Shown: piece by piece, positions 13,028 through 33,769 of the stretch | Layout: the number at the start of each line of letters is the position of its first letter | Numbering within the stretch: position 1 is the first letter of the stretch | Assembly (NCBI GenBank): GCA_011772425.1 | Contig: WVZO01000205.1 | Location: forward strand, 2,211-35,979 | Length of the DNA: 33,769 nucleotides | Source: Candidatus Aminicenantota bacterium | GTDB lineage: Bacteria; Acidobacteriota; Aminicenantia; UBA2199 | Direction of reading: 5' to 3' | Program-made: the position numbers and the translations under genes | The notes under the pieces: generated by a model | The model's database searches: none | What the model was told of the DNA's origin: nothing | What the model saw: the letters and a program-made list of their open reading frames with translations, nothing else

Positions 13028-13073
13028 ATTTACACCTCCTTGATACGTGATGTGGGGCAAGCAGATGAATTAA

Positions 13074-17325: not shown

Positions 17326-17340
17326 TTTTTATTTCTCCTT

Positions 17341-18189
17341 TTATTTTTTTGATTTTCTAAAGGAATCAATGAGTTTCATGTCCTTATCGAAGACCTTCAC
17401 CACCAATCGGCTGTCCTCCGGATACAGTACACAAAAATGGTGTTTTTTAAAAAATACCTGGCTTTGCGGGATTTCGCGGGTTTTATCGTACAATACGGCG
17501 CCGCCTCCGCCAGTAACAATATAAAATATGTTATTATGGTAAAGCCTTTCATATATATGATCATGACCGGAGAATACCATATCCACACCGTATTTTTCAG
17601 ATAATGGAACAATGGAATCTCCCAGGTGTTTTTCGTCTAAGCGATGATGACCGGAGCTGAATGGGGGGTGATGTTGAACAACAATTCTGAAGGTTATGTG
17701 AGGTTTGATCGTTTTCAAATCATTTACCAACCATTCATACTGCTGCGAATGCTTGAAAATGTGCCAGTTGGTGTCCAGGACGATAAAGTGAATATTACCG
17801 ATGTCTACGGAATACCATTGTTCATTATTGGGTAATTCGAAATTATCAAAATATAAAAGCGAATTAAAATCATGATTTCCCAGGGCCGGGTAGAATTTTG
17901 TTTTTTTTAGAAGCGGTGCCGTAATCGTGTTGAAAGCCTTCCAATGGTTTTCATTTTCACCATGCATTACCATGTCCCCGGTGTGAAAAACCGCTGCCGG
18001 ATTCAACATTATCATGGAATCCACGAGCTGGCGGTGGATATGGTTATTTTCCTGGGTATCGCCGTAAATGATAATACATGCCGGTTTTGCTTTTTGGGCA
18101 GTCATGGCGGTGGAGACCGCAGACCGGCAGCCCGGGGAAAAAAGGATTCCAACGGAAATAATAAAAGATGAGATTATCTTGAGGTTCAT
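17341..18189 (-). CDS. Exported calcineurin-like metallophosphoesterase
   Basis: The protein has 282 residues. An N-terminal signal (residues 5-20) ends at SPGC (Cys21), so it may be a lipoprotein, although the lipobox is not ideal. All metal-site motifs are present: GDTQ (Asp44), HTGDMV (Asp72), GNHD (Asn105-His106), QHHPPF (His173/174) and SGHDH (208-211). The family hydrolyses phosphoesters; this layout resembles purple-acid-phosphatase-type members. It follows two kinase genes by 19 bases in a cluster that builds a small molecule, so removal of a protective phosphate outside the cytoplasm is a reasonable inference. Housekeeping phosphate scavenging is the alternative. Confidence 0.88.
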   Translation of the reverse strand: MNLKIISSFIISVGILFSPGCRSAVSTAMTAQKAKPACIIIYGDTQENNHIHRQLVDSMIMLNPAAVFHTGDMVMHGENENHWKAFNTITAPLLKKTKFYPALGNHDFNSLLYFDNFELPNNEQWYSVDIGNIHFIVLDTNWHIFKHSQQYEWLVNDLKTIKPHITFRIVVQHHPPFSSGHHRLDEKHLGDSIVPLSEKYGVDMVFSGHDHIYERLYHNNIFYIVTGGGGAVLYDKTREIPQSQVFFKKHHFCVLYPEDSRLVVKVFDKDMKLIDSFRKSKK

Positions 18190-18208
18190 TAGCCTTTTCT
18201 CCTTTCAT

Positions 18209-19222
18209 CTACAAAGTTTTAACCTCTTTGATGAAATTCTTAATCAATCGCATGTTTTCATCAATATATGAATCGTCATGGGTTAAGCGAATGCCTCGAT
18301 ATTTATTAAAGAGTATGGTGAGGCCGTATCCCCATATAAACCGGATCAATCCGAATATTTTTATTGCTTTAAATTCCTCGCTGCTCAGCGTTTTTTGTTC
18401 GTTATAGCCGATTAAAAATTCATTAAAGATTTCCATCCACTTTATTTTATCGGTGTTGAAATCCTGCATCTGGAGCAAACTGTAAAGATAAACACCGATA
18501 TCATATGCCCGCCACCCGTATCCAAAACAGTCGAAGTCAAAGAGAGTGGATTTCATGTTACGGTCAAAACGAATATTTTTTGTATTCAGATCGCCGTGGC
18601 AAATTCCATATGCCGGTTTTTCCCGGGGAATTTTTTCGAGCCGGTGCTTCACTTCCCGGGCGACGGCTTTTAAGAAATCGATATCTGCCGGCCGGTGTTG
18701 GATCACCCGGCAAATCCTGTCAATGGGCTCATCCATTAGATATTCCAGGTCGAGATGATATCTTTTATACCGGGTATCGATTTTATCCATACAGCAGTGC
18801 ATCTTTCCGGCCAGTTTTCCAAACAGGTAACTTTGCCTGCTGTCCAGGATATTATAGGGGGTTCCCCCGGCATTGTTAAATAACACGGCGCAGCGTTCAC
18901 CTTCCGGTGCATTAATGATTTGCAGATATTGCCCTTCCCTGGTTCTAACCGGCATGGCAACGGGGATATTATGGTGATGGAGATGATGCAGGAGATCGAT
19001 TTCTTCTTCTATATCCTGTCGGGTTTGCCACTGGTGCCGGTTGACCCGGAGGTAATAGGTGGAGAATTTACTCTTAACGATGTAAACATGATTCAAATGT
19101 GCACTGTACAAATGACATTCCCGGGGTGGTTCCAATGGGTATCTACTCGCTACTTCAGCCAATAAATCCCGGCTGGATAGAATGGTACTTTGTACGGGAA
19201 AGTATTGATCTGTACCTGTCAT
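18209..19222 (-). CDS. APH-type small-molecule kinase, paralogue A
   Basis: The 337-residue kinase of the aminoglycoside phosphotransferase/choline kinase fold starts after AAAGGAG. The catalytic loop is GICHGDLNTKNIRFD (207-220; Asp211, Asn216) and the metal-binding motif is LFDFDCFGYGWRAYDIG (from 227; Asp229). The N-lobe has YLRVNRHQ and EIDLLHHLHHHNIPVAMPV. The substrate (sugar alcohol, amino group carrier or the cluster product) is unknown. The upstream gene is a full-length paralogue 39 bases away, so the two arose by tandem duplication. Their place between the aminotransferase and an exported phosphatase suggests a role in product modification or self-protection. Confidence 0.88.
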   Translation of the reverse strand: MTGTDQYFPVQSTILSSRDLLAEVASRYPLEPPRECHLYSAHLNHVYIVKSKFSTYYLRVNRHQWQTRQDIEEEIDLLHHLHHHNIPVAMPVRTREGQYLQIINAPEGERCAVLFNNAGGTPYNILDSRQSYLFGKLAGKMHCCMDKIDTRYKRYHLDLEYLMDEPIDRICRVIQHRPADIDFLKAVAREVKHRLEKIPREKPAYGICHGDLNTKNIRFDRNMKSTLFDFDCFGYGWRAYDIGVYLYSLLQMQDFNTDKIKWMEIFNEFLIGYNEQKTLSSEEFKAIKIFGLIRFIWGYGLTILFNKYRGIRLTHDDSYIDENMRLIKNFIKEVKTL

Positions 19223-19261
19223 GGAGATGTTCTCCTTTGGTCCGGGTTTATCATGGTATTA

Positions 19262-20278
19262 TTACAAACGCCGGAAAAAGTCAATTTCTTTTGTATAGTT
19301 TTTAATTTTACCAATGTTTTCATCGACAAATTTACCCTCCATGATTACCTTGATTCCATTATGTTTATGTAAAAGGAAATTAAGCCCGATGGCCCATATA
19401 TGCCGGATCACTGCAAATATCTTGATGGTATTAAATTCTTCATGGGTCAGGACGTTTTCACCATCATAGCCGGTTAAAAATTCATCAAAGGCTTTCCGCC
19501 AATTCACCCGGTTGGCCGCGGCTTTGGGTGTGTGTATCAAATTGTAAAGATAAGAACCGATCTCATATCCCCGCCAACCATATCCGAAGCAGTCGAAGTC
19601 GAAGATCGTGGGATTGAGGTGACGGTCGAAATGGATATTTCTCATATGAAGGTCGCCGTGACAGATTCCATATCCCGGTGTGGTTTTGGGCAATCGCTCC
19701 ACCTCACGTTCCAGGTTTTCTTTAATTTCCTTCAGGTAATATGTGAGGTATTTTTTGTGGGGCAGGAACCGGCACATCCGTTCCACCGGTTTTTCCAGTA
19801 AATAGTCCAGGTCAAGGTGAAATTTGTTATATTTTTTATTCATTTTATCCGTAAGGCGATGTATTCTGCCGATAATTTCCCCAAACCGGTAATTTTGCTT
19901 TTTGTCGGAGATATCGCAGGGTTTTCCCCCGGCATTGGTAAATAAAACGGCAAAGCGAATGCCTTCCGGTGCATGAAGGGGTTGAATGCAGTGTCCGTCT
20001 TTATCTTTAACGGGCCTTGCTGTCGAAACGCCATTGTCCTGTAAATAATTGAGCAGATGGATTTCTTCTTCTATATCCTGTCGGGTTCGCCAGTCATACA
20101 AAGGAATTCGCAGGTAATACGTCGAGGTTCCGCTCCGCACCAGGTAAACATGATTCAAATGGGTATTGAATAAATGACATTCCAGCGGCGATTCCAATGG
20201 ATATCGGCTTACGACTCTTTCCAGTAATGCCTGGCTGCATAAAATAGAACTTTGCGCGGGAAAATATGGTTTATGCAT
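19262..20278 (-). CDS. APH-type small-molecule kinase, paralogue B
   Basis: The protein has 338 residues from ATG 20278, chosen over the in-frame ATG 20356 because GGGAGG (20292-20287) lies just upstream and the N-terminus then aligns with paralogue A (YFPAQSSIL against YFPVQSTIL). The catalytic loop is GICHGDLHMRNIHFD (Asp209), and the metal site is IFDFDCFGYGWRGYEIG (Asp227). Similarity to the downstream kinase runs the whole length. Differences cluster in residues 80-100 and the C-terminal half, so the two may phosphorylate different positions or substrates. Gene order places it in the NRPS cluster transcript. Confidence 0.88.
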   Translation of the reverse strand: MHKPYFPAQSSILCSQALLERVVSRYPLESPLECHLFNTHLNHVYLVRSGTSTYYLRIPLYDWRTRQDIEEEIHLLNYLQDNGVSTARPVKDKDGHCIQPLHAPEGIRFAVLFTNAGGKPCDISDKKQNYRFGEIIGRIHRLTDKMNKKYNKFHLDLDYLLEKPVERMCRFLPHKKYLTYYLKEIKENLEREVERLPKTTPGYGICHGDLHMRNIHFDRHLNPTIFDFDCFGYGWRGYEIGSYLYNLIHTPKAAANRVNWRKAFDEFLTGYDGENVLTHEEFNTIKIFAVIRHIWAIGLNFLLHKHNGIKVIMEGKFVDENIGKIKNYTKEIDFFRRL

Positions 20279-20395
20279 GGATTTGTCCTCCCTGGTATCA
20301 TCCCGGACGATGCCGGGGGAACCGCCAGGTTCATGTAAGAAAGCAGCGCCGCACACACAGAGAGAATCGGGATGTTCAGCTTAACCGGGTTAATG

Positions 20396-21439
20396 TTATT
20401 CGATGTCGGTGATATGCAGTTCCCAGACTTCATCACTTTCTCTTTCCACCAATTGATACAGTTTTTTATTTTCAATGCAAAAGGGAAATGGTTCGATGCC
20501 ACTCTCATAAATAGGAAGGAACACTTTCTTTAGAAATTTTCCTTTAACCTCGAAGATATATACTTCTCTTTTTTTTTCTCCCGGTTTTTCATTCTCCCCT
20601 GTTTTATTGGTTATAGCATATACGTTTTGATTTGAAACAAACAGGTTAAAGATGGCCGGTAAGGTATCGGGGAATTTCAATCGCCATTTAATCATTTCAA
20701 AATAAGGTTTTGTATCGGGATCTGTTTTTAAATGATTCAGCACCATATTTTTCATTTCCCCTGTAAATTTTATCAGTTCATATTCCTGCTTTATGGAATA
20801 TAATGGTTTGCCCTCACTGTCCAATACATCGATAACGAATTCTTTAGCGCCGCTGATAAATATTTTGTTATCATAGACATCGCAGTCGAAAGACTTCTCG
20901 CTTACCTGGATCCCCGTTTGACCGGGCTGCTGCTGGTATAATGTCCGGTAAATTTCATTAATTTTTTTTAAATTGGCATCATAGAGATTGAGGGTTAGAT
21001 AATTGGTTTTATTCTCCTGGAGAAGTCCTGTTCCTACAAATTTTTCCCCAATGGGAATAAATACCACGTTAAACCCGCCCGGGGTTTTAATTTCTTTTTT
21101 AAATGTCCCCTCTTTTGTGAAATAGGAGACCTTGCCAATGCTGTTTACAATAAGGTCATTGGTTCGGACATTAACAACCACGGGCAGGTTGGGTATCGTT
21201 TTAAATTCCTCGGGTCCTTCGCCTTTGCGGCCAAACTTCTTAATCAGCCTGAAATTCGTTAACGAATATATATATATGGCTGCTTCTTCAGTGATATAGA
21301 TTTGACTTTTGTCTGCAGTTACGGTTAAGGGTCTGAGGAGGCCGGGTAAGTCCACCACTTTTGCTTGTGCAGCCGACACAAGACCTGCACCGATACCGAT
21401 ACAAACCGTCAAGAACAAAACAAAAATTGATCGTTTCAT
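20396..21439 (-). CDS. Secreted 6-bladed beta-propeller protein in the NRPS cluster
   Basis: The 347-residue protein follows AAAAAAGGAGATAGTCT. A signal peptide ends near AQA (24-26). Blade motifs are evident, including IYITEEAAIYIYS and KKFGRKGEGPEEFKTIPNLP (from about 67), the same FGRKGxGP signature as in the protein at 546-1622. The family is the 6-bladed beta-propeller (DUF5128-like) group of exported proteins. It lies 33 bases after the tandem aminotransferase and shares its direction. It could bind the peptide product or act in export or sensing; no active site is visible. Confidence 0.78.
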   Translation of the reverse strand: MKRSIFVLFLTVCIGIGAGLVSAAQAKVVDLPGLLRPLTVTADKSQIYITEEAAIYIYSLTNFRLIKKFGRKGEGPEEFKTIPNLPVVVNVRTNDLIVNSIGKVSYFTKEGTFKKEIKTPGGFNVVFIPIGEKFVGTGLLQENKTNYLTLNLYDANLKKINEIYRTLYQQQPGQTGIQVSEKSFDCDVYDNKIFISGAKEFVIDVLDSEGKPLYSIKQEYELIKFTGEMKNMVLNHLKTDPDTKPYFEMIKWRLKFPDTLPAIFNLFVSNQNVYAITNKTGENEKPGEKKREVYIFEVKGKFLKKVFLPIYESGIEPFPFCIENKKLYQLVERESDEVWELHITDIE

Positions 21440-21472
21440 AGACTATCTCCTTTTTTCATTTTTTCGTTTTTT

Positions 21473-23662
21473 TTATTTTTCTGTTTTTTCTGGCCTGTTT
21501 ATTCGTTTTCTTTTTTTCCTGAGCTTTCTTAATATATAGCGGGGAAAACGGGTGCGAATAAAAAATTTCCCGGAAAAGCCACAAAAAAGCCTGGTAAGGT
21601 TCTCTATTAACAAGTGAACCTCTTCCTCGGTAATGGTTAAAGCCGGCATACAACGATTTAAAATTAAGAAGACGTTGGCTTTTTCCTGGCAGAGACGAAA
21701 CATAAACAGAGGAAATAATATTCGGCCCACTGCATTGGCATTGGCACCGAAAAATTTCAATATTCTCATGTCATAATTGAAATGGAAGCTAAATATAAGC
21801 CCTTCCCCATCTATCTTCCTGATAAAAGGAGACTTTTCAGCAATTTTTGTTAATCCTGACCGTAAAATTTGCGAGATATGCTTCACATGGTTTGTGATAT
21901 CGATATGCGCAGAAGAAAGTTTCTCCAGGACATGCAAAGCAATGTGCGATCCCAATTGGTTCAGGTACAATTTTTCCAGGTAGTTTACCACTTCCGGTTT
22001 ATATGAAAGGGCCCCCTGGTATACATCGGAAGAAACCAGGGCGACACTGCAAGGAAATGTGGCATCGGTAAGGGCTTTACTTAAGGTAATGATATCCGGG
22101 GAGAGGTTTGTTTCTTTATGAGCCAGGAATTCTCCCATTCGATATATGCCGGTTAAAATTTCATCCACTGCCACAATATAACCACCTTTTTCTTTGTATT
22201 CCCGGATAAGGTCTAAAAACTCCCGGGGAATATGTCTAATGGTTTGCCCCTGGAAGACCTCCAGCCAGACCAGGGCTATTTTTTGGGATTCTAACTCCAT
22301 TTTCAAGACTTCTTTTGACATGCGGCTCATGGGGTCGATGTAAAGCACATCGAAATACAGGGGGAAAAAAGGCTGGCGAAGACTTTCTTCCTGGGAACCT
22401 ACCAGTGATAACAGGGTTGTGCCGGCAAAGTTGCCATTGAAAACAATGATGCGAGTTCTATCCTTATTGGCCAACATGGCCAGGGTCATGGCAATTTCAA
22501 CAGCAGAGGCACCGCTCACAGCAGGAAAGGCATGAGAAAAGCCGGTTTTCTCCCTGAGCGTTTGACACAATTTTTCCCAGTAGTTTTCCTCCGGGTTGTG
22601 GAGGTCCAGTACTTCAGGGACGATATCCCCGGGTGTATGTCCTCTCACCGTTATGGCTCCTGCCGATGCACAATCGATAATCTTCCTTTCCTTTTCTCCT
22701 TCTTTAACGGTTAAGATGGACCCATGGGCGTTAACCGGGTGTATATCCAGACCACTTCGGGCGTAAAACCGTTTTAAACCTGGATTGATGAAACTGGCAT
22801 AAGCATTGATCCGCTCCCGGTCATGTTCTTCAATCTCCCGGCAGTAAGAAATGATAGAATTGTTATTTTTGAATGCCGGCACATTGGCAAGCAGATAATC
22901 TCGCACCCTGGTAAGGACAACCCTGTTTCCACCGAAGGCGGAGGTATGAATCATGCAGGTTTGTGAATTGTTCATCGGCAGGTAAATAGTATCCCGCATG
23001 GAGAATGCCCCAAAGGGTATTTCGTATTGGGTGAGCGATTCACCGGTGATAACCACGTCAGGTAAAACCGAAACCCGGTTCACCAGCGCTGAACCGTCTT
23101 TAAAATCGGTGTCTGACTCCTCGATAATGGTTAAGACACCTTTTTCCCTGCATATTTGCAACAATTCCTCCACCGTCTCAAGAGAAAGGTTCTTATCCAC
23201 CCGCAGGATCAGGCCGGCCGGGGCGAACCCTATTTCGTGAAAATGGTTTAAAAGCTCTTCTATTTCTCTAAAACACTGCACTTCCGGGATTAATGCTTTT
23301 TCTTTGCCCCGCTCCAGCGGGTCAATGGTTAATTGCAGCTCCTGTTTCGGATCATAAATCAAGACCTCTTTACTATTTTGCTGCATTGAGCCGGTTAACC
23401 TGGCCCTGGCAATTTTGATGGCACCATGCAGCGCTTCAAATCGTGAATTCCCGAAAAATGTCATATACCTGACTCGCTCTTCATCAGGACGTCCCTGGTT
23501 AAAACATTCGTTTAACAGGTATCCCACCTGTCCGGCTTCCGGCGAAATAAATCCCGTGGACAGTAAAAACGTATGTTTTCTATTCTCATTAAAATCCTTA
23601 ATCAACTGGATGGTGATATGGGAAGCAGGTTTGAAAATTCCTTCATGACACGGTTGTTTCAT
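21473..23662 (-). CDS. Tandem class III aminotransferase with inactive N-terminal half
   Basis: The 729-residue protein starts after GGAGGG (23673-23668). Residues 15-310 and 315-695 are two copies of the class III (fold type I) aminotransferase domain. The second half is complete: SGASAVEIAMTLAML (383-397), AVDEILTGIYRMGEF (498-512; PLP-binding Asp500) and DIITLSKALTDATFP with Schiff-base Lys529. In the first half the matching segments are FFGNSRFEALHGAIKIARAR (69-88), TIIEESDTDF (178-187) and DVVITGESLTQYEIPFGAF (202-220), where Glu208 replaces the lysine. So the first half is probably a structural or regulatory pseudo-domain. The enzyme is expected to pass an amino group to an aldehyde or ketone, fitting the reductase release of the upstream NRPS. 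The C-terminal 30 residues are very basic. Confidence 0.85.
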   Translation of the reverse strand: MKQPCHEGIFKPASHITIQLIKDFNENRKHTFLLSTGFISPEAGQVGYLLNECFNQGRPDEERVRYMTFFGNSRFEALHGAIKIARARLTGSMQQNSKEVLIYDPKQELQLTIDPLERGKEKALIPEVQCFREIEELLNHFHEIGFAPAGLILRVDKNLSLETVEELLQICREKGVLTIIEESDTDFKDGSALVNRVSVLPDVVITGESLTQYEIPFGAFSMRDTIYLPMNNSQTCMIHTSAFGGNRVVLTRVRDYLLANVPAFKNNNSIISYCREIEEHDRERINAYASFINPGLKRFYARSGLDIHPVNAHGSILTVKEGEKERKIIDCASAGAITVRGHTPGDIVPEVLDLHNPEENYWEKLCQTLREKTGFSHAFPAVSGASAVEIAMTLAMLANKDRTRIIVFNGNFAGTTLLSLVGSQEESLRQPFFPLYFDVLYIDPMSRMSKEVLKMELESQKIALVWLEVFQGQTIRHIPREFLDLIREYKEKGGYIVAVDEILTGIYRMGEFLAHKETNLSPDIITLSKALTDATFPCSVALVSSDVYQGALSYKPEVVNYLEKLYLNQLGSHIALHVLEKLSSAHIDITNHVKHISQILRSGLTKIAEKSPFIRKIDGEGLIFSFHFNYDMRILKFFGANANAVGRILFPLFMFRLCQEKANVFLILNRCMPALTITEEEVHLLIENLTRLFCGFSGKFFIRTRFPRYILRKLRKKRKRINRPEKTEK

Positions 23663-23729
23663 TGTAACCCTCCAATTTTACATTTATATATTTTTTAGAT
23701 TTTGCCCTGTCAACTATTCTAAACGTCAT
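23643..23729 (-). CDS. 28-codon short ORF overlapping the aminotransferase start
   Basis: ATG 23729 follows AAGGAGG (23742-23736) at good spacing. The frame reads MTFRIVDRAKSKKYINVKLE and a few more residues, then stops 20 bases inside the aminotransferase gene. The length and site suit a leader peptide for translational coupling. It overlaps a plausible internal promoter, so it may not be a gene. No homologue is recognised. Confidence 0.3.
   Translation of the reverse strand: MTFRIVDRAKSKKYINVKLEGYNETTVS
23685..23713 (-). promoter_or_regulatory. Possible internal promoter of the tandem aminotransferase gene
   Basis: On the minus strand a perfect TTGACA (23713-23708) is followed after 17 bases by TATATA (23690-23685). 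The transcript would start about 16 bases before ATG 23662. The 110-base gap before this gene is the largest inside the cluster. Confidence 0.45.
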
Positions 23730-23772
23730 TGGTTTTATCCTCCTTTTTTTTGCTTTACTGTTTCGTATATTT

Positions 23773-24708
23773 TTATATGTATGTGCCGGTATCATCTGCC
23801 GGCTGAAGACGGTTTGGTTCTGTACAGTTACGGCAAATGTCCGGCCATTTATTCTCTTTTATGATTTGTGCTTTACGGGAATGAATGAGGCTCATACTAT
23901 CCTTGTTAATATTACCCACTACAAACCGGTGCTGGATATCCTGGCAGCAAACCAGCACATCTCCGTTCCAGGCAATAAAATTAAAATTCTCAAACACGGC
24001 GCAGGATTGGACCGGGGCCCCAGCAGGCTCACCGCTGTAGACCGGGGACATACCAATACCATTGATATCGACGAAGCCGCCCCGGTTATGCATATATTGA
24101 GGAACACTCCGCATACCTTTCGCGTACCAGAAGGCTTTTATTTTTTCTTCCAGGTGAAGATTTTCTCTTGAAAGTATGAACGTTACCAGTAATTGGGTGC
24201 CCCGGGTGCCGGGATTTTTTCTTTTAAGAATTTCCCCCTGTGTATACTCCAATTTTGCCAATGTGTCCGTGAATCGTGCACCTTTGGTTAAATTTTCATA
24301 GGTTTGAGCATCGATCCCGTTAAAACTTACCATAATGGAATTTATTTGAGCATCCAACAAAGAGGTTACGGTATGTGGATTCAAGAGTGTACCGTTGGTA
24401 ATGATCCCTATATTAAAGTGGTGGTAACGATTCCTTAGTTGAGTAACAAAGCCTGGGAGCGACGGGTTAAGAAGGGGTTCCCCTAACCCGCAAAAGGTAA
24501 CGGTATCGTGGGAACGGAGCCTGGCATTTTTTAAAAAATTATCAAAGGTACCGGGTTCCATCATTCCTATTTTTTTCATATTTTCCCGGGGGCAAAATTT
24601 ACAGGAAATATTGCATCTCCTGGAAGCTTCCACATCAAAAATACGGGAATGCGCAGGCAGCGAAGCACTTGAGAAGAGCCGGTTGAAAAATTTTTTTAAC
24701 TTTTTCAT
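23773..24708 (-). CDS. Radical SAM/SPASM enzyme in the NRPS cluster
   Basis: The protein has 311 residues. RRCNISCKFCPRE (31-43) carries the SAM-cluster cysteines 32, 36 and 39; FCGLGEPLLNP and GIITNGTLLNP are standard core motifs. The C-terminal part (about 228-300) has SCAVFENFNFIAWNGDVLVC, CCQD and ICRNCTEP, the form of a short SPASM domain binding one or two auxiliary clusters. Such enzymes modify peptides or small molecules by radical chemistry; the reaction here is unknown. It sits 49 bases after the glycosyltransferase gene. No clear Shine-Dalgarno site precedes ATG 24708, so translation may be coupled to upstream genes. Confidence 0.85.
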   Translation of the reverse strand: MKKLKKFFNRLFSSASLPAHSRIFDVEASRRCNISCKFCPRENMKKIGMMEPGTFDNFLKNARLRSHDTVTFCGLGEPLLNPSLPGFVTQLRNRYHHFNIGIITNGTLLNPHTVTSLLDAQINSIMVSFNGIDAQTYENLTKGARFTDTLAKLEYTQGEILKRKNPGTRGTQLLVTFILSRENLHLEEKIKAFWYAKGMRSVPQYMHNRGGFVDINGIGMSPVYSGEPAGAPVQSCAVFENFNFIAWNGDVLVCCQDIQHRFVVGNINKDSMSLIHSRKAQIIKENKWPDICRNCTEPNRLQPADDTGTYI

Positions 24709-24757
24709 TTTAATTTCATTTAATCACGTTAAAAAGGAAGAGAGCCCTATGGTTTAA

Positions 24758-26143
24758 TTATTTATCGGCTAAAAAATTTTCTATAAATTCCACCCCTTTC
24801 AGGCATTTTTCCTGTTCTCTAAAGACCTGCTGCATGCGTTGGCAGGAGCGTCGGATATGGTCATCCGTTGAGACGCGGTCCAGGAGCTCGCTCATTATCC
24901 CGGGAGTTATTTTTTTTATATTTCCCGGCAGGCCAAGACCATGATACACCACACGGGCAGCATAACCCGGTTGATCCCTCTCAATAGGAAATACGATCAT
25001 GGGAACACCGAAATATACAGCTTCCCTGACGGTTCCCAAACCGGCATGACAGATCACCACGGACGTATGGGGCAGGACCTCTAGATGAGGAACCCATTTC
25101 TCCACGAATACATTGGCGGGAAAGGGACTGAATTCTTCAATATCTTCATCATCGGGCATTTGCAGGATGAGCTGCCAACCCGGGCGCTGTTCCATTACTT
25201 TGATGACGGCATGGTACAATTTTTTCCTGTATTTCCATTTTTTACTGTAGGAACCAAGGGTACAGTATACAATCGGTTTCTGTTTATCAATGCCCCCCCA
25301 GTACAACGGTTCTTCTTTACGGTAGATATCCACGCTTGCACCTATATAACAGGTTGAGTCCCGCCCGGGTGCATGGGGGAAATCAAATTCCCGCGGACAG
25401 GTGATCAATTCAGGCACCTTTAATTTGGAAAAATATTCCGTACGCCGTAAACGCCCGCCGCCGTATTTCTTTATTACTTTTCTCATCGATTGGATTGAAT
25501 TAGATGTAAACCCCCTGGCAAACCGTAAAGCCAGGGAATCAAAAAATTCTAACCGTACCAGCACCATTAAGATCTTTGCCCAGGCTGCTGTATTGAGAAC
25601 GTGTGAAAGCCAGCCATTCTTCTTCCCGGGGATTATCCCGGAAAATACGGGCGGGACCCTGGAACTAGGAAATGAGATCAGGGTAAAATTTAGATTGATT
25701 ATAGGAATCTTTAACTTAAGAAAAGGGATTGAAAAATACAACATCATGGGGTCCAGTAATACCAGGTGCGGTGGTTCTTCTCTCAGTACTTCCTCCATTT
25801 TCGCCCATAAATCTTCCTGGACCCTGTACTTCATGCGCCGCTTCAACCGGTACATGCGGATGGAACCCGGCATTTTCCTATATTTCTCGTTCAGTTGGTC
25901 CAGGTAATATTTCATTCGCTCTTGCTCAAATTCCCTGCTCAACTCTTGATATTCGAAACCGGAATCAATTATGTATTCTTTAAAACCCGGGGCGCAAATC
26001 ACATAATACACCACCCGGCAGCCGCGGTTCATTAATTGCCGTGCTAGCATGAAGGAGGCATTAAAGGATGACCATTCCGGGTACATGACCACCATGATGT
26101 GTTTTTTTCTTGCACTTGTGCTGCTGCTGCTTTCGCTGTTCAT
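24758..26143 (-). CDS. UGT/MGT-family glycosyltransferase (GT1-like)
   Basis: The protein has 461 residues from ATG 26143, preferred to ATG 26203 since AGAGGAGATG precedes it and the longer start lies inside the upstream gene. The N-terminal domain begins KKHIMVVMYPEW with FMLARQLMNRGCRVVYYV (31-48). The C-terminal nucleotide-sugar domain has IVYCTLGSYS (291-300), VEKWVPHLEVLPHTSVVICH (347-366) and AGLGTVREAVYFGVP, and ERDQPGYAARV (388-398), the signature of macrolide-type and UDP-glycosyl transferases. It should place a sugar on the cluster product, for glycosylation or reversible inactivation. The sugar donor is unknown. The start is 28 bases past the upstream stop. Confidence 0.88.
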   Translation of the reverse strand: MNSESSSSTSARKKHIMVVMYPEWSSFNASFMLARQLMNRGCRVVYYVICAPGFKEYIIDSGFEYQELSREFEQERMKYYLDQLNEKYRKMPGSIRMYRLKRRMKYRVQEDLWAKMEEVLREEPPHLVLLDPMMLYFSIPFLKLKIPIINLNFTLISFPSSRVPPVFSGIIPGKKNGWLSHVLNTAAWAKILMVLVRLEFFDSLALRFARGFTSNSIQSMRKVIKKYGGGRLRRTEYFSKLKVPELITCPREFDFPHAPGRDSTCYIGASVDIYRKEEPLYWGGIDKQKPIVYCTLGSYSKKWKYRKKLYHAVIKVMEQRPGWQLILQMPDDEDIEEFSPFPANVFVEKWVPHLEVLPHTSVVICHAGLGTVREAVYFGVPMIVFPIERDQPGYAARVVYHGLGLPGNIKKITPGIMSELLDRVSTDDHIRRSCQRMQQVFREQEKCLKGVEFIENFLADK

Positions 26144-26171
26144 ATTCACATCTCCTCTTTCAGGATTGTTT

Positions 26172-29100
26172 TCATCCGGGTTTTTGAGCGGAAACCAGGA
26201 CATAATCGGTAATACCCACGGCTCTTTCCCGTACCTCCCGCCATTGAGAAGATTCCATGTCCTGGGTGGTAAGTTCCACGATTGCGGATTCCATATCGAG
26301 TTTTCTTAACTGCCGCATGGCGATGTATTTTGTGGAACCGGCCAGGACATATTCGGCAATGGATTGCACCGAGACATTTACAAATCCTGCTTCCTTCAAT
26401 TTCCGGGCGTAGACATTTCGATCATACATGTTGGCCGAAGGATAGGCACCATGGCGGCGGAAGAGCCGTTTCAAAAACCCGGAACCCGTTGCTCCCGGCT
26501 CAGGAAGCATATCAGTGGCTGCCAGTATTCCCCCGGGTTTAAGAACTCGAAAGGCTTCTCTAAAGAAATCTTCACGGGTATTGAAATGAAAGGGGCTTTC
26601 TAATGCCAACACTTTTTCAAAACTCTCATCCTCGAATTGGATATCAGCGGCATCACCCAGGTGAAGCTCAATGCGGCCCTGGAGATTCCGTTCCTTCACC
26701 CGTTGTTCTGCAATCTTCACCTGTAAAGGGGTAATATTAATCCCCACGATCCTGGCCACGTTGTACAACTCAAGCCAGAAGAAATCTTGCTCGGCAAACC
26801 CGAAGCCGGCATCCAGGACTGTATCGTCAGCGTTCAATTTTGCCTCATCGGAAACGAGCTTTGCCAGGGCCGCGCATGCCGCAGGATATGTCCTGGCATC
26901 TTTCCAATACCCGTTATTAAACCACAGGGATTTGCCAATGTCCTTAAACCCGCTGTCCAATTCTTCAATCACATCATCCCCCAACCCGGAATAGTAGTCG
27001 GCGGCACCCCTGGGTTTAAATAATTCCAGGATAAATTTTACCAGGACGAACAGTTTATTTCGGGTTTGATGGAATTTGGAAGGCTTTGTACGCCTTTTTC
27101 TCCTTCTCAATTTCCTGTATACAGTAGAAAGAAAATAGAGTTTGATAAAAAGTATCCCGGATGGTTTACACAGGAGCTTTTCCAGGTTGTGGAGGAGTAA
27201 GCGGACCTCCTGGTTGGTTATGGTTAACGCAGGTGATAAGCGGGTAAAATGGGAAAAGACACCGGCTTTTTCCTGGCACAAACGATTCATCACCAGCGGA
27301 AACAAGGCCTGGCCTGTTTGCCGGGCCCGCTGCCCCATGAATTTCAAGATTTTGCTTTCATAAGCGAAATTCAGGCCAAATATCATGCCCTCCCCACTCA
27401 CTTCGCGAATAAATGGGCTCTTGCCGGCAATATCCTTTAAGCCAGTGAGAATAAGTTGGGATACGTTTTCCACGTGTTGGTTGATGCCGGAATCGTGGAG
27501 TTTTTCCAGGGTATGCAGGGAGATATGAGCCCCCAGTTGATTGACATATAAATTCTCCAGGAGGTTTACCACCCCTGGATGAACGGAGAGGGCTTGCTGG
27601 TAAACCTTATCGGAAACCAGGGTGGTTCCAATAGGGAAGGTGGCATCGGTAAGACCTTTAAACAGGGCAATGATATCGGGGGAGAGGTTTTTCCCTTTGA
27701 AAGCTAAAAATTCACCCATGCGGTACACACCGGTTAGTACTTCATCGACGCCAATAAGATATCCGCTGTCTTTTTTGTATTGTTCGATGAGATCCAGGAG
27801 TTCCCGGGGAATGCTTCTCATGGTTTGTCCCTGGAACAATTCCAACCAGATCAATGCCACTTTTTGAGATTCCAGTTCTTTTTTAAGCACTTCTTTTGCC
27901 CGTTGATTCATGGGATCGATGTACAATACATCGAAATAGAGGGGAAGAAAGGGCTGACGAAAGGGTTCATTTTCAGTAGCGGCCAATGACAGCAAATTGG
28001 TGCCGGAGTAGTTTCCTTTAAACACGATGATGCGGGTTTTATCTTTATTGGCCACCAGGGCCAGCGTAATGGCGATGTCCACGGCTGTGGAACCGCTTAC
28101 CGCAGGAAATACATGAGAAAAGTTGGTGTGCTCTTTTAATGTCCCACACAATTTCTCCCAATAGTTCTCTTCCGGGTTATGAACCTCCAGTACCTCCTGG
28201 ACAATGTCTTGAGGATTATGGCCCCTTACGGCCACCCCCCCACTGGCGGTACAATCCAGGATATCCCTTTGTTTTTCTTTTTTTCCTTGTTTTGCCTTGA
28301 TGGTTAAGGTTGAGCCGTGGGCGTTTACCGGGTGGATATCCAACCCTGCCCGGGCATACAGGCGTGTGAGGGCAGGATTGATGTATCGCGCATACGCCTC
28401 TTTCCGTGTCTCATCGAGTTCTTCTATTTTCCGGCAATAGGCATATACAGCTTTATTATCGGTCAACATTGAAACATGAGAAAGCAAATGATCACGGATA
28501 CGGGTAAGGACGAGCCGGTTTCCCCCGCAGGTAGACGTATGCAGCATACTGGTCATGGAATTGTTCAGGGGTAAATAGATATCATCGGCAGTGGAAAATG
28601 CCCCGAAAGGTATCTCGTAACCCGTTAATGCCGCGCCCGTCACAATTATATCCGGCAATTGGGATAACCGGTCCAACACCCACCGGCCTGTAAAATCGGT
28701 ATCGGGTTCATCCAGTACCGTGACGACTTTTTTTCCCCTGCATAAAGCAAATATCTCCTCGATGGCCTCAGCAGGAAGCTCCTTTACGCCTCGAAGCACT
28801 ACCGCGGCAGGTGCATAAGCCATATCCAGAAAATGCTTTTTTATGTCATTGATTTCTTTGAAAAGGAGGATATCCGGGATTAATGCTTTTTCTTTTCCCC
28901 TTTCCAGGGGGTCCACGAACTGTTTTATCTCCCACCTGCGATCAAGCACCAGGATTTCGCTGGTATTGTATCGATTTGAACTGCTTTGCCGGGCCCTGGC
29001 AATCTTAAAGGCTCCTTGCAGTGCTTCAAAGGGAGAATTACCAAAAAAAGTTTTATATCTCCTTCGTTTATAACTCATGCGTCCCCGGTTAAAGCATTCA

Positions 29101-29252
29101 TTCAAAAGGAATCCCACCTGGCCTGCTTCCGGGGAGATAAAGCCGGTGGATAGTAAAAACGTATGTATTTTCTTTTCATTAAAATCTTTCATCAGGGCAA
29201 TGGTTTCAGGGGATGCCGCTCTAAAAATCCCCTTTTGATTCGAGTGTATCAT
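26172..29252 (-). CDS. Tandem class III aminotransferase fused to SAM methyltransferase
   Basis: The protein has 1026 residues from ATG 29252, which has GGAGG just before it and whose N-terminus aligns with the 729-residue paralogue; ATG 29297, overlapping the NRPS stop (ATGA), is possible. The first aminotransferase half keeps VLDEPDTDF but has Ala207 in VTGAALTGYEIPFGAF where the PLP lysine should be. The second half is intact: GVDEVLTGVYRMGEF (Asp503) and DIIALFKGLTDATFP (Lys532). A basic linker (about 710-745) leads to a class I methyltransferase (about 755-1020) with VLDAGFGFAEQDFF (812-825), INITPLQVKIAEQRV and FRVLKPGGILAATDML, of the UbiE/EryG-like type. One polypeptide could thus transaminate and methylate the product. 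It follows the reductase domain of the NRPS directly. Confidence 0.85.
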   Translation of the reverse strand: MIHSNQKGIFRAASPETIALMKDFNEKKIHTFLLSTGFISPEAGQVGFLLNECFNRGRMSYKRRRYKTFFGNSPFEALQGAFKIARARQSSSNRYNTSEILVLDRRWEIKQFVDPLERGKEKALIPDILLFKEINDIKKHFLDMAYAPAAVVLRGVKELPAEAIEEIFALCRGKKVVTVLDEPDTDFTGRWVLDRLSQLPDIIVTGAALTGYEIPFGAFSTADDIYLPLNNSMTSMLHTSTCGGNRLVLTRIRDHLLSHVSMLTDNKAVYAYCRKIEELDETRKEAYARYINPALTRLYARAGLDIHPVNAHGSTLTIKAKQGKKEKQRDILDCTASGGVAVRGHNPQDIVQEVLEVHNPEENYWEKLCGTLKEHTNFSHVFPAVSGSTAVDIAITLALVANKDKTRIIVFKGNYSGTNLLSLAATENEPFRQPFLPLYFDVLYIDPMNQRAKEVLKKELESQKVALIWLELFQGQTMRSIPRELLDLIEQYKKDSGYLIGVDEVLTGVYRMGEFLAFKGKNLSPDIIALFKGLTDATFPIGTTLVSDKVYQQALSVHPGVVNLLENLYVNQLGAHISLHTLEKLHDSGINQHVENVSQLILTGLKDIAGKSPFIREVSGEGMIFGLNFAYESKILKFMGQRARQTGQALFPLVMNRLCQEKAGVFSHFTRLSPALTITNQEVRLLLHNLEKLLCKPSGILFIKLYFLSTVYRKLRRRKRRTKPSKFHQTRNKLFVLVKFILELFKPRGAADYYSGLGDDVIEELDSGFKDIGKSLWFNNGYWKDARTYPAACAALAKLVSDEAKLNADDTVLDAGFGFAEQDFFWLELYNVARIVGINITPLQVKIAEQRVKERNLQGRIELHLGDAADIQFEDESFEKVLALESPFHFNTREDFFREAFRVLKPGGILAATDMLPEPGATGSGFLKRLFRRHGAYPSANMYDRNVYARKLKEAGFVNVSVQSIAEYVLAGSTKYIAMRQLRKLDMESAIVELTTQDMESSQWREVRERAVGITDYVLVSAQKPG

Positions 29253-29293
29253 GTTATCCTCCGTTTCTGTTACGTTTACTTCCTGTTCTTTTC

Positions 29294-32200
29294 TCATTGA
29301 TCCAGGAATCCCACTTTCTGGCAGTGTACGATCATTTTAAAGATATGGTCATCGGTTATCTCAGGCCACTGGAAGTGAAGTTTTTCCAGCAGCTTGAGGG
29401 ATTGATCCGAAGCGGTCATGTTGATGGTGCGTTTTTTTCGCTCTTTCTCCAGCAACCCGGAATGGAGTAATAAACGCTCGATATTCGCCCGGTGAGAATG
29501 ATTTTCCAGTTGCTCCACCAGGTAATCGAGAAATAGGTTGGGCCTTAAAAACTGGATTTTTATTCCTGCTTTCTCCAGGGCCCGCTCCATATCTTTCCAG
29601 GCAAAGGCATGGTGGTTCTGGATGTGATAGTTCCGGTTTAAAAGAGGTTCTCTCATCATTAACAATACGATTGCATGGGCTGCCTGATCGACAAAGGTAA
29701 AATCACTGAGTCTTAAATTATCTGCCACAGCCCCCAGGGTGATAAAGGCTTTAACATTAGCATAGAAGGCATTGTCTTCGATATTTTCCTGGAATATGCC
29801 GGTGTCCGAATGAAACACCAGGTTCCCCATCCGGTAAATGGAGGCCTTTAACCCTTTTTCCCTGGAGGAAAAAACTTTTTTCTCTGCTTCAAACTTGCTT
29901 TTGATGTAAACATTTTCATGCTGCTGCCCCACATCCCCGGTGAGGTCTGTATAGACCATGTACTCTTTTCCTTCTACGTCCCCGGAACAGACACTTAAGC
30001 TTGATATGTAATGGAAATCCTTTTGTTTTCCTGTCATTGAAAATTGAAGCAGCTTCTCGGTACCCAGCACATTGGTTTGATAAAAATCCTGGTAATGTCC
30101 GAAATGTTTTACATTGGCAGCAGAATGAAGAACAACATCGATGGTTTCGGATAAGGATTTAAACCGGGAATCATCCATCCCCACGCCGGGGGAACATAAA
30201 TCACCCTGTACCACGTGCAGCCGCTCTTCATTTAAATGATAAAAGTCAGGCCCAAAGTAGTAGGAGAGTCTTCGCTCAAGCCGACGGGTGGAATCTTCAA
30301 CTGATTTTCCCCTTACCAGTAAGTAAATTTCTGCATTGGTGGTTTTCAACAATTCTGCTGCCAGGTGGGCCCCCAGGAATCCTGTGGCACCGGTCAGCAA
30401 TATTTTCCGGTACCTGTTTTTAACTTTTAACCCTTTTATCCGGGTTTGATTGACCTGCTGGCGGTAGGTCCTGAGCTCTTCCATTATCTTCTGCTGTACA
30501 GGGTCTAAGTCTGCGGTCACTTTATTAACAGGTAAGGTGAGTCTCGTTCGCAGTTCTTCTATTTTCTTTTTCAGGTTGTCTTTTTTCATCACGATATTTT
30601 CCATTAAAGCAGCCACGGTTTGATACTTGAAAATGTCATTCATACTGACATCAAAATGCTTGATCATTTCCGATATAAGCTGGATGGCTTTTAAGGAATC
30701 TCCGCCAATTTCGAAGAAGTTATCGTAAATACCGATTTTTTCGATTTTGAGTACTTGCTGCCATATGTTGACCATTTGTTTTTCAGCGGGGGTGCGGGGC
30801 TCTGCGTATTTATCTCCTGTGTGGGCCATACCCTGGTAAGCTTGAAGTGCTTTTACGTCCAGTTTTCCCCCCGGGGTTCGTGGTATTCCTTCCAGTTGAA
30901 CGAAATAGGAGGGGACCATATATCCCGGTAAATCCCTGGTCAGGTGTTTGATCAATTGGGATACGGAAATCTCTTTATCAGCAACAATATAGGCACACAG
31001 GTGGCTTTCACCGGTCCCTTCCCCTTCCCTGGCGATGACTACAGCTTCTTGAATGGCCTCGTGTTTCAGCAGTTGGGTCTCAATACCTTCCGGTTCGATC
31101 CGGTTTCCCCTTATCTTCACCTGGTGGTCCAGTCGGCCCAGGAACTCAATCGTTCCATCAGGTAACCATTGGGCCAGGTCACCGGTTTTGTAAAGACGCT
31201 CTCCAGGAACAAACGGATTATCCATGAATTTTTTCCGGGTTAATTCCACATCATTTAAATATCCCCTGGCTACATTATCACCGGATATGCACAATTCTCC
31301 AGGAATTCCCACAGGCTGTAATCGATTCTCCTTATTCAAAATAATAATTTTTTGATTGGGCAGGGGGTGTCCCAGGGGAATCGTTTCCAGGTGGCTGACA
31401 TTGATCCCGGAAATTTCAAAGGTGGTGGAATCCACACAACATTCCGTGGGGCCATATACATTGGTGATGCAGGTGAGGTGGGGCTCAAAAAAATGCAAAA
31501 ACTCCCCGGCCAGTTTCCGGGGCAGGGCCTCCCCGCCAATAATAAAATTGGTTACCCCGGGGACAGGTACTCCCTCTTTCAGGCATTCCAGGAGTAAGCG
31601 AAGGTGAAGGGGGGTACCATCGGAAATATCAAGCTGGTGCTTTTCATAAAAATCGATTAACCTTCGACCATCCACGCGAATAGCCTCGGGAACGATATTC
31701 AAACAATGCCCCAACAGTAAGGCTGCAAATATCTGTTTAATGGATGCATCAAATATCAACGGAGAAAGGAAGCCGATATTCAAGGTCCCCTTGAATTTGT
31801 ACTGGTTGTATATTCGCTCATTTAATCCACAAATAAGATTATTTAGATTTTGATGTTGAAGCAATACACCTTTGGGATTGCCGGTGGAACCGGAGGTAAA
31901 AATACCATAAACCAGGTCCGTAGGTTTATTGATAGGCTTTAAATTCGTTCCGGAAGTGAGGGACAACAGGTCTGAGATTTCATCCAGGAGAAAAATATCA
32001 AGCCCGGGGCGCTGTTCTCTTTTCATTTTCCCTATCCCCGGCATAAAAGCGATCCCTTTTATCTCTGCCAGGATTTCTTCTCCAGGGAGTTCCCCATTAT
32101 TCTCCAGGATTTTTTCGATAATTTCCGCGAAGATGATTTCACCTTCTCCCAGTACCGCCAGGTCCACATTCCTGTCTTGCAAAAGGGATACGTAATCACA

Positions 32201-33769
32201 GGTGGCATAGGGACCCCCGGTAATGAGGGGGCCGTTAAATCCCCACAACCGCACCAGGGCCGCGGTCTTATGAAAATTATCCCTGAAAAAGGTCAATGAC
32301 CGGATGCCGACAACCTCGGGTTTAAATTCATCCACGATCTCTTTTAAATCGTTGAAATTGTCAAAATCAATCCCGGGTTTGATAATCTTCCCTTTTACCT
32401 TTGCCCCAAATTGTTGATGGAGATAACCCAACAGGTACATGAGTCCCAATGGGGTTTCCAGGAAATGGCCGAGACGCCTGGATTGTTGGGTAAAATCCCG
32501 GGATAAATCCACCAATAAAATTCTTAACGCATTGGCTAACGGTTTCTTTTCCGGGAAAGCATGTTTTACTTTTTCATTTAAATGGGGAACCCGGACTTTT
32601 TCCTCGTCAAGACATTCTTTTAGCCGCAATTCTTCCCGGGAAAGCCCCAAAAATTGCAGCAGTTCATCAATATCTTCGAACTGCATCCCCAGGTAGCTGT
32701 TGTATTTAAGTACAATCTCCCTTTCTGTCAGCACCACCATCTGTTTGGGCAGGACATGGCGCAAACGTTCTTTAGAGAGGAAATACTCATTGAGTAATTG
32801 GGTCTGATATTTTAGGGTAAACCCTTTATCAAAGGGCAGGGTATCATCCACTTCATGGAAACCCGAGGATTCGGTTCGTTCGATGGCTTCTTTGGAAACG
32901 CCGTGTTGAAGGGCCAATTTTTCCATATCGGTATTGGGATATATTTTCAAAATATGAATGTAAGGAAAATCGACCCACTTGATATTATTGATAAAATTCA
33001 AGGTCTCCATGGCCTCTTCTTCGGTTTCCGTGGGAAAACCGTGCATAGTATTCAGTTCGAGGATGATATGGGGATGATAGGTAGTAATGTATTCGATATT
33101 TTCCTGGAGTCTCTTGATGTTCAAATTTTTCCTGATCATCTTCTGCAGCCTGGGGGTGGCGGTTTCAAGAGAAATCCTGACAAGTTTCAGTCCGGCCTTT
33201 ACCATTAAATCGATGTAATCGGGAGTTAATATATCTCCCCTTAAAAGAAAAAAGAATTGGACATCCAACCGGTATTCTATGATTAATTCAAAGAACCGTT
33301 GGCTGTTTTTTTTGTTAAAATTAAAAATATCATCCACAAAGTAGAAGCGCCGGATGCCCATTTTGTAATAGAGTTGAACTTCTGCAAAGATATTTTCAGC
33401 AGAGCGAAAGATATGGATTTTGGGCCAGATTTTAAAACAATAGGCACAGTTAAAAGGACATCCCCGGGTGGCCTGAAGGGAGATACTATGACTCACCTGT
33501 AAAAACCCGGGATGTTTCATGTATTGTTTAAGATCGATCAGTGAACTGTCGGGAAAGGGTAATTGATCAAAATGTTTGATAGGGGGGCATGGGGCTGTAA
33601 CAATGGGAGTTCGAGCATTTGCCCGCCCCCGGAGTATTGCGGTAAATGAGTGTTTATCAGCAATATATGACTTTGTTACTAAATAGGACGAATTGCAATC
33701 TTTCAGCATGGAGGAGATTCGCCGAAGGGGGGTATTGAAATGGATGGGAAGGTATGCCCCTCCTGCTTT
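29294..33769 (-). CDS. NRPS termination module: A domain interrupted by radical SAM and B12 domains, then PCP and thioester reductase (partial)
   Basis: The frame runs off the right edge; residues are counted from the in-frame Met at 33709. Before it comes KAGGAYLPIHFNTPLRRISS, the A2 region of an adenylation domain, so the true start is outside. After LVTKS (14) the domain breaks off. There follow a radical SAM linker (PPIKHFDQLPFPD, 42-54) and core (RGCPFNCAYCF; Cys84, 88, 91; to about 330). A B12-binding domain follows (RILLVDLSRDF at 396, PLITGGPYATC at 494, AVLGEGEIIFAEII at 518). The A domain resumes at DLVYGIFTSGSTGNPKGV (A3, 598), with VYGPTECC (751), YKTGDL (840), GRLDHQVKIRGNRIE (858) and GGKLD (947). 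The carrier site is GGDSLK (1002-1007). The reductase (1100-1471) has LLTGATGFLG and YIKSK. The final residue is probably released as an aldehyde or alcohol. Confidence 0.9.
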   Translation of the reverse strand, partial: KAGGAYLPIHFNTPLRRISSMLKDCNSSYLVTKSYIADKHSFTAILRGRANARTPIVTAPCPPIKHFDQLPFPDSSLIDLKQYMKHPGFLQVSHSISLQATRGCPFNCAYCFKIWPKIHIFRSAENIFAEVQLYYKMGIRRFYFVDDIFNFNKKNSQRFFELIIEYRLDVQFFFLLRGDILTPDYIDLMVKAGLKLVRISLETATPRLQKMIRKNLNIKRLQENIEYITTYHPHIILELNTMHGFPTETEEEAMETLNFINNIKWVDFPYIHILKIYPNTDMEKLALQHGVSKEAIERTESSGFHEVDDTLPFDKGFTLKYQTQLLNEYFLSKERLRHVLPKQMVVLTEREIVLKYNSYLGMQFEDIDELLQFLGLSREELRLKECLDEEKVRVPHLNEKVKHAFPEKKPLANALRILLVDLSRDFTQQSRRLGHFLETPLGLMYLLGYLHQQFGAKVKGKIIKPGIDFDNFNDLKEIVDEFKPEVVGIRSLTFFRDNFHKTAALVRLWGFNGPLITGGPYATCDYVSLLQDRNVDLAVLGEGEIIFAEIIEKILENNGELPGEEILAEIKGIAFMPGIGKMKREQRPGLDIFLLDEISDLLSLTSGTNLKPINKPTDLVYGIFTSGSTGNPKGVLLQHQNLNNLICGLNERIYNQYKFKGTLNIGFLSPLIFDASIKQIFAALLLGHCLNIVPEAIRVDGRRLIDFYEKHQLDISDGTPLHLRLLLECLKEGVPVPGVTNFIIGGEALPRKLAGEFLHFFEPHLTCITNVYGPTECCVDSTTFEISGINVSHLETIPLGHPLPNQKIIILNKENRLQPVGIPGELCISGDNVARGYLNDVELTRKKFMDNPFVPGERLYKTGDLAQWLPDGTIEFLGRLDHQVKIRGNRIEPEGIETQLLKHEAIQEAVVIAREGEGTGESHLCAYIVADKEISVSQLIKHLTRDLPGYMVPSYFVQLEGIPRTPGGKLDVKALQAYQGMAHTGDKYAEPRTPAEKQMVNIWQQVLKIEKIGIYDNFFEIGGDSLKAIQLISEMIKHFDVSMNDIFKYQTVAALMENIVMKKDNLKKKIEELRTRLTLPVNKVTADLDPVQQKIMEELRTYRQQVNQTRIKGLKVKNRYRKILLTGATGFLGAHLAAELLKTTNAEIYLLVRGKSVEDSTRRLERRLSYYFGPDFYHLNEERLHVVQGDLCSPGVGMDDSRFKSLSETIDVVLHSAANVKHFGHYQDFYQTNVLGTEKLLQFSMTGKQKDFHYISSLSVCSGDVEGKEYMVYTDLTGDVGQQHENVYIKSKFEAEKKVFSSREKGLKASIYRMGNLVFHSDTGIFQENIEDNAFYANVKAFITLGAVADNLRLSDFTFVDQAAHAIVLLMMREPLLNRNYHIQNHHAFAWKDMERALEKAGIKIQFLRPNLFLDYLVEQLENHSHRANIERLLLHSGLLEKERKKRTINMTASDQSLKLLEKLHFQWPEITDDHIFKMIVHCQKVGFLDQ

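Follow-up and report, generated by a model that had tools for sequence, protein, structure and literature searches.

A nonribosomal peptide synthetase adenylation domain interrupted between motifs a2 and a3 by a radical SAM/B12 unit

The insert types that reviews record in interrupted adenylation (A) domains of nonribosomal peptide synthetases (NRPSs) are methyltransferases, oxidases or monooxygenases, and ketoreductases (PMC11355689, PMC8949500). In TioN (thiocoraline) and MarQ (maremycin) the catalytic domain lies between motifs a2 and a3, and the A domain is complete on either side (PMC11355689). The same arrangement is found in an NRPS gene from Candidatus Aminicenantota bacterium, located in a stretch of 33,769 nucleotides (the window, C542:2211-35979) of a 10.4 Mb genome in 768 contigs. 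Of the two insertion sites, a8-a9 and a2-a3, its insert occupies the latter, and it belongs to none of the recorded types, as it is composed of a radical S-adenosylmethionine (SAM) core (PF04055) and a cobalamin (B12)-binding domain (PF02310). The original prediction, made from the sequence of the window, held that a B12 radical SAM enzyme here replaces the conventional methyltransferase and knew of no described example. The two Pfam matches bear out the former point; as to the latter, no radical SAM insert in an A domain was found in the open-access full-text literature, the Lundy 2020 survey lying outside that scope, so that a prior report is possible.

The anatomy of an A domain with an embedded radical SAM/B12 unit is near certain. 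We propose, as a fairly probable reading of the data below, that the insert is of a type new to interrupted A domains, and that the embedded enzyme C-methylates the residue of its own module in cis.

Anatomy and recurrence of the interrupted A domain

The NRPS gene of the window is read from the minus strand, as are all of its features given here, in one stop-free frame (29297..33769) with the order a2-[radical SAM>B12]-a3..a10-T-thioester reductase, where T denotes the thiolation domain. Its 5′ end is truncated by the window edge and an NN gap. The first half of the A domain is represented by motif a2 (KAGGAYLPI, 33743..33769). Set against the uninterrupted A domains of this contig, the insert comprises ~556 residues (32003..33670); it directly follows the strand SSYLVTK after a2 (33691-33671) and directly precedes the strand LDIFLLDE before a3 (32002-31979); the left boundary of 32008 given in the original prediction was correct to within a few codons, and only a small correction of the insert proper was required. 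The conserved core of the insert (32033..33580) spans positions 1-518 of 520 in its hidden Markov model. The insert opens with a linker, HFDQLPFPDSSL (33539..33574), which in stand-alone enzymes connects the B12 and radical SAM domains. The radical SAM core (32990..33472; residues 100-260, E value 1.9e-21) carries CPFNCAYC (33437..33460), the CxxxCxxC motif for the [4Fe-4S] cluster, which is retained in nearly all copies. The B12-binding domain (32120..32455; residues 439-550, E value 4.5e-9, over the curated cut-off) is without DxHxxG.

Beyond the insert, the second part of the A domain matches positions 155-384 of the AMP-binding model (31256..31942, E value 1.7e-48) and contains a3 (TSGSTGNPKG, 31897-31868), a4 (31753-31742) and a5 (31456-31442). 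It is followed by a7 (31192-31175), a8 (31111-31079), which begins just ahead of AMP-binding_C (30863..31084), and a10 (PGGKLDVKAL, 30874-30845), and then by the T (PP-binding) domain with GGDSLKA (30599..30775) and a thioester reductase domain (29669..30397; NAD_binding_4, and TIGR01746 over its cut-off). The split motifs of the A domain are thus preserved in frame from a2 to a10, and motifs and Pfam matches confirm that a2, the radical SAM core with its CxxxCxxC, the B12 domain and a3 share one stop-free frame, as predicted. Complete interrupted A domains, with a1 to a10, were found at C542:45770-51406, L053, L054 and L057.

The right edge of the window coincides with a two-N assembly gap ('NN', 33770-33771), across which the reading frame is broken. 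Just past this gap, in another frame, lies the upstream portion of the gene, with half a condensation domain and an A domain up to a1 ('...EEETLT'). The shift of frame is attributable to the arbitrary length of the gap, and the missing a1 therefore to the assembly. Extension to the right, as the original prediction had advised, accordingly recovered the first part of an A domain.

Three further copies without a gap inside are located on the window contig (C542:38854-45837, 45770-51406 and 63125-73111). Measured by motif, the distance from a2 to a3 is 620-635 residues in interrupted A domains compared with mostly 58-88 in uninterrupted ones from the same loci, in keeping with insertion at a2-a3 and not with chance or misassembly. 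A profile was built from 12 inserts, and the open reading frames (ORFs) around the B12 matches of the genome were scanned at a threshold of 300 bits. This yielded 32 ORFs, two of which are halves of one gene; with two partial copies added at C384 and C569, the genome contains at least 33 copies. Their mean pairwise identity is 58% (range 48-87%), and the cluster cysteines and SAM-site motifs are retained even in copies that are just 48-60% identical.

Homologues of the insert occur in at least five phyla, namely Acidobacteriota/Aminicenantes, Bacteroidota, Thermodesulfobacteriota, Bacillota and Elusimicrobiota, their hosts including Aminicenantes Ww63, Acidobacteriota erpe_2018, Bacteroidales Cfx3-06, Elusimicrobia STD1 and bacterium Gpa_5; Halothermothrix B5 has four copies. 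The isolate Desulfosediminicola flagellatus IMCC35005 carries one copy on its complete chromosome, in a polyketide synthase/NRPS cluster. This species is a strict anaerobe from tidal-flat sediment, and its complete genome is deposited (PMC8497536). Among 41 relatives searched, seven genomes of the source family contain the insert, and in 396 genomes sampled across the phylum of the window it was absent from all but the source genome. Within the phylum it therefore seems limited to the source family.

The original prediction named a misassembly at about 33.67 or 32.01 kb as one of the observations that could overturn it. The NN gap abutting the window edge and a bin contamination of 6.86% might point to such a chimera, but over 30 divergent copies share these junctions, which are also present in other phyla, on a complete isolate chromosome and in the three ungapped copies of the same contig. 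We therefore reject a chimera, the chance of which we regard as negligible.

Domain order and fold of the insert

Sub-profiles of the insert revealed the order radical SAM>middle>B12 in 39 ORFs, all within A domains or remnants of A domains, and the order B12>radical SAM in 123 related ORFs, which are stand-alone proteins. In one stand-alone example (C149:501-1949), residues 34-157 match insert positions 377-502 and residues 184-438 match positions 4-264. Against known family models, the B12 half of the insert aligns to the N-terminal region and its radical SAM half to a later one. The nearest stand-alone homologues, L061 and L062 from Smithella, reveal the position of the cut: the linker that follows their B12 domain, '...NPRFYLSEDELNALPFPAW', is the counterpart of the first part of the insert, 'TSTRPQITDLDNFPIPDRS', and the insert ends where their B12 domain does. 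As judged from these alignments, the insert is a circularly permuted class-1-like cobalamin-dependent radical SAM enzyme.

According to a review of 2025, the B12 domain of class 1 is N-terminal and has five strands, whereas that of class 2 (Mmp10, DUF512) is C-terminal and has four (PMC13331322; PMC8828468). Like the class-1 enzymes OxsB, TokK and TsrM, the insert has a radical SAM barrel with CxxxCxxC and a MetH-like Rossmann B12 domain (PF02310 over the cut-off; five strands predicted). Unlike theirs, which is N-terminal (PMC13331322), its B12 domain is C-terminal by circular permutation, with radical SAM before B12 in 39 of 39 insert ORFs of complete order. The C-terminal position is shared with class 2 (Mmp10 and DUF512 proteins), but there the domain is four-stranded and resembles that of the corrinoid iron-sulfur protein, with a cap helix, whereas that of the insert is five-stranded and is related both to PF02310 and to the domain found at the N terminus of class-1 homologues. 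Hence, a plain class-2 (Mmp10-like) enzyme was rejected, and the insert unites a B12 fold of class 1 with the domain order of class 2.

A structural model of the window insert, calculated with 11 homologues (predicted local distance difference test (pLDDT) 85.8, predicted template modelling (TM) score 0.88), displays five parallel strands in the B12 domain. Among solved structures it is most similar to AprD4, the glutamine C-methylase MgmA and TsrM; OxsB and Mmp10 rank lower. The Foldseek alignments covered mostly the radical SAM region, the outcome to be expected when a sequential aligner is given a permuted protein. The complete interrupted A domain of Desulfosediminicola (L054) was also modelled (pLDDT 73.5), and this model aligns lengthwise to the A domain 4d4g over 1038 columns with gaps, with a TM score of 0.63 by target length; in the fold search most matches cover part of the A domain and few span both halves. 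Joint folding of the two A-domain halves, for which the original prediction had proposed such modelling, is supported by this alignment but not proven.

Substrate codes, remnant modules and proposed reaction

Specificity codes were extracted by alignment to GrsA, the sequence of which was verified by its known numbering. The A domain of the window has the Glu-like code DAKDIGVVD. Among interrupted A domains we find DFWNIGMVH (seven), DVQF(I/V)A(H/N)VV (seven), DGFFLG(V/M)VY (six) and DAKD (three, including the window copy), which by the usual tables are codes for Thr, Pro, Ile and Glu, respectively. DPWYIGT(I/V)N occurs three times, and DAWFLGNVV, DALWLGGTF and DLTKIGEVG, presumably specifying Leu, Val and Asn, once each, along with four others. 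Within the same loci, codes for these seven residues are present in 26 of 33 interrupted as against 12 of 42 uninterrupted A domains (Fisher p 2e-5); as the set was picked after the data had been seen and the domains are non-independent, this enrichment is no more than suggestive.

When the a3-a8 halves are placed in a tree, code groups contain both interrupted and uninterrupted domains, with 18 label changes, at least nine of them forced by supported branches. The insert has therefore been joined to many specificity halves and behaves as a cassette across them. In the tree of the insert itself, Glu and DPW each form one group, Pro requires three changes, and Thr and Ile are not resolved by code; clustering by code thus holds in this tree only for the Pro, Glu, DPW and remnant groups.

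These remnants are inserts that have outlasted their host. Five of them, in C497, C471 (second copy), C47:91901, L051 and L052, lie downstream of a complete A domain and immediately upstream of T, most of them among scraps of a second A domain; a sixth decayed host A domain is C702:38-2641. The remnant inserts retain CxxxCxxC, and their ratio of nonsynonymous to synonymous substitutions (dN/dS) is 0.07-0.11 in the pairs tested, with dS saturated. Even though the host A domain is gone, the insert is under constraint, and this retention is the strongest sign that it is the working part. The adjoining complete A domain has the code CVQYIAHVV in four of the five cases and a CVQ-type a4 in the fifth; this is a Pro-like code with Cys in place of Asp235, which binds the amino group. 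A further CVQY A domain, at C47:97234 (residue 4186), is without insert. One copy elsewhere (C47:25903-31626; L032:3-1481; O86) reads RGYPYNCAYC instead of RGCPYNC and has lost the first cluster cysteine; it is probably inactive or the result of a sequencing error. Such a copy would suit the view that the insert has no catalytic activity and is carried along as a passenger, or that its role is structural. The conservation of cluster cysteines and SAM-site motifs at 48-60% identity, the low dN/dS and the retention in remnant modules argue otherwise, and we consider this view highly improbable. The edge gap, the permutation, the recurrence in more than 30 copies and other phyla, the many codes and the persistence past A-domain decay had all escaped the original prediction.

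Adenylation and loading are standard NRPS steps. In the mechanism that we propose, the A domain would activate its own amino acid, Glu-like in the window copy, and load it onto the T domain of the same module. The embedded enzyme, adjacent to T, would use SAM, a [4Fe-4S] cluster and methylcobalamin to remove a hydrogen atom from an unactivated side-chain carbon and to transfer a methyl group to it, prior to condensation or, in the terminal module of the window, prior to release by the reductase. We place methylation after loading because conventional inserts act on the T-bound residue (PMC11355689).

Three lines of evidence suggest that the reaction is C-methylation. The codes (Thr seven times, Pro seven, Ile six, Glu three, and Val, Leu and Asn) denote residues with sp3 carbons of the sort used by C-methylases, and most characterized natural-product B12 radical SAM enzymes are methylases. 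Furthermore, DscE, a free-standing homologue of B12 radical SAM methyltransferases, has been tested in vitro with the nonribosomal peptide discodermin D as substrate, and methylation products were reported (PMC12858407).

Several observations weigh against this assignment. Neither cobalamin binding nor the reaction is readable from sequence. Compared with the NCBIfam models for BchE, PhpK, the ladderane type, the C-methyltransferase of ribosomally synthesized and post-translationally modified peptides (RiPPs), KedN5 and AprD4, the insert scores at best 88 bits, with cut-offs of 251-775, and reaches no named methyltransferase family. The closest solved relative in both sequence and fold, AprD4, is a dehydratase. 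In addition, the saturated dS, the loss of a cluster cysteine in one copy and the moderate confidence of the L054 model have to be considered. We agree with the original prediction that C-methylation is the likeliest reaction, but hold it as an inference.

Because the insert lies outside every named family, other radical chemistry keeps real weight. The permuted unit might act in cis on the T-bound residue by oxidation, dehydration, ring formation or rearrangement, or epimerization, with chemistry of the kind known from BchE, AprD4 or OxsB; in agreement, the best solved match is a 1,2-diol dehydratase and the best-scoring named families are BchE and the ladderane type. Codes as varied as these (Pro, Ile, Thr, Glu, Leu, Val and Asn), however, suit one common reaction at sp3 C-H bonds better than a functional-group-specific one, and we rate such chemistry as unlikely, albeit the most serious competitor. 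An epimerase in particular is unlikely and would be unneeded, as modules with the insert may also hold an ordinary epimerization domain (L054, C525, C47).

The unit could also act in trans, or at a late stage, with the growing peptide or other modules as its target; the A domain would then be just a convenient site of insertion. Free-standing DscE accepts a finished nonribosomal peptide in vitro (PMC12858407), and stand-alone B12 radical SAM genes adjoin several of these NRPS genes. Nevertheless, there is one insert per module and there are many per cluster (four on the window contig), five decayed copies are still placed immediately ahead of T in a module that has an A domain of its own, and in the insert tree the Pro, Glu, DPW and remnant groups show clustering by code. 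Action in trans or at a late stage is therefore doubtful, and methylation in cis remains our preferred reading.

Genomic surroundings and comparison with known systems

A second kind of interruption, a canonical B12-then-radical-SAM unit with CGMxCFxC upstream of a1, is found at C542:55979-61981 (L010:2079-8081, minus), where it lies between the N-terminal stretch of the A domain and a1, and at C551:50680-55248. These units are not permuted and are distant relatives of the insert. Some A domains are doubly interrupted. C657:11561-17590, L057:8696-14062 and L058:1514-6889, with the code DPWYIGT(I/V)N, combine the radical SAM/B12 unit at a2-a3 with ~330 residues at a8-a9 that have no Pfam match and by eye resemble a PP-loop ATPase of the N-acetyl-sugar amidotransferase type (CxxC..YPGI..DGxCxxC, degenerate SGG loop); L056:869-7192 instead carries Methyltransf_12 at a8-a9. 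Many NRPS proteins (C542:35870-36886, C542:45770-51406, L057, L058 and others) begin with only the second half of a condensation domain, corresponding in L057 and L058 to about 185-456 of the Pfam model, and other NRPS proteins end with T-C.

Downstream of the terminal NRPS gene, the window (16624-29294, minus) encodes a class-III aminotransferase fused to a methyltransferase, a glycosyltransferase, a radical SAM/SPASM protein, a second class-III aminotransferase, two APH-type kinases and a phosphoesterase, which are likely tailoring genes of the cluster. Also located in the window are another radical SAM/SPASM protein (14184-15338, minus) and a RiPP-maturation radical SAM C-methyltransferase (11165-13057, minus; TIGR03975, 442 bits at a cut-off of 282). 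Elsewhere, a peptidase U32-like protein lies between NRPS genes of the cluster (C542:61969-63225; L010:8069-9325, minus), and a stand-alone PhpK-family radical SAM P-methyltransferase (C554:23904-25601; L020:1905-3602, minus; TIGR04479, 624 bits at a cut-off of 600) lies between NRPS genes; stand-alone B12 radical SAM genes also stand beside other clusters.

We give even weight, for and against, to a wider idea: that a portable, permuted B12 radical SAM cassette has spread among anaerobes of several phyla as an a2-a3 plug-in, at times escaping its host A domain, and sets C-H methylation separately for each residue (Thr, Ile, Pro, Glu, Val, Leu, Asn) during nonribosomal synthesis, as the NRPS counterpart of a polytheonamide-type C-methylated peptide. 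If true, radical chemistry on unactivated carbons would take place inside the assembly line, programmed per module, and product predictors that use A-domain codes alone would give unmethylated peptides here. The permuted order is a third arrangement of cobalamin-dependent radical SAM enzymes besides classes 1 and 2. A unit that joins many specificity halves and outlives its A domain may serve as a natural part for engineering C-methylated peptides, and the idea is testable, since a cultured anaerobe with a complete genome carries the cassette.

Among known systems, DscE and the RiPP C-methyltransferases (TIGR03975) are likewise B12 radical SAM enzymes, and they C-methylate peptides. They are, however, free-standing and act on peptide substrates; the TIGR03975 model follows the canonical domain order, and the insert reaches a score of 34 compared with its cut-off of 282. 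TioN and MarQ match the site of insertion, but their insert is a conventional S-methylating SAM methyltransferase, whereas the A domain described here accommodates a radical SAM/B12 unit of ~550 residues.

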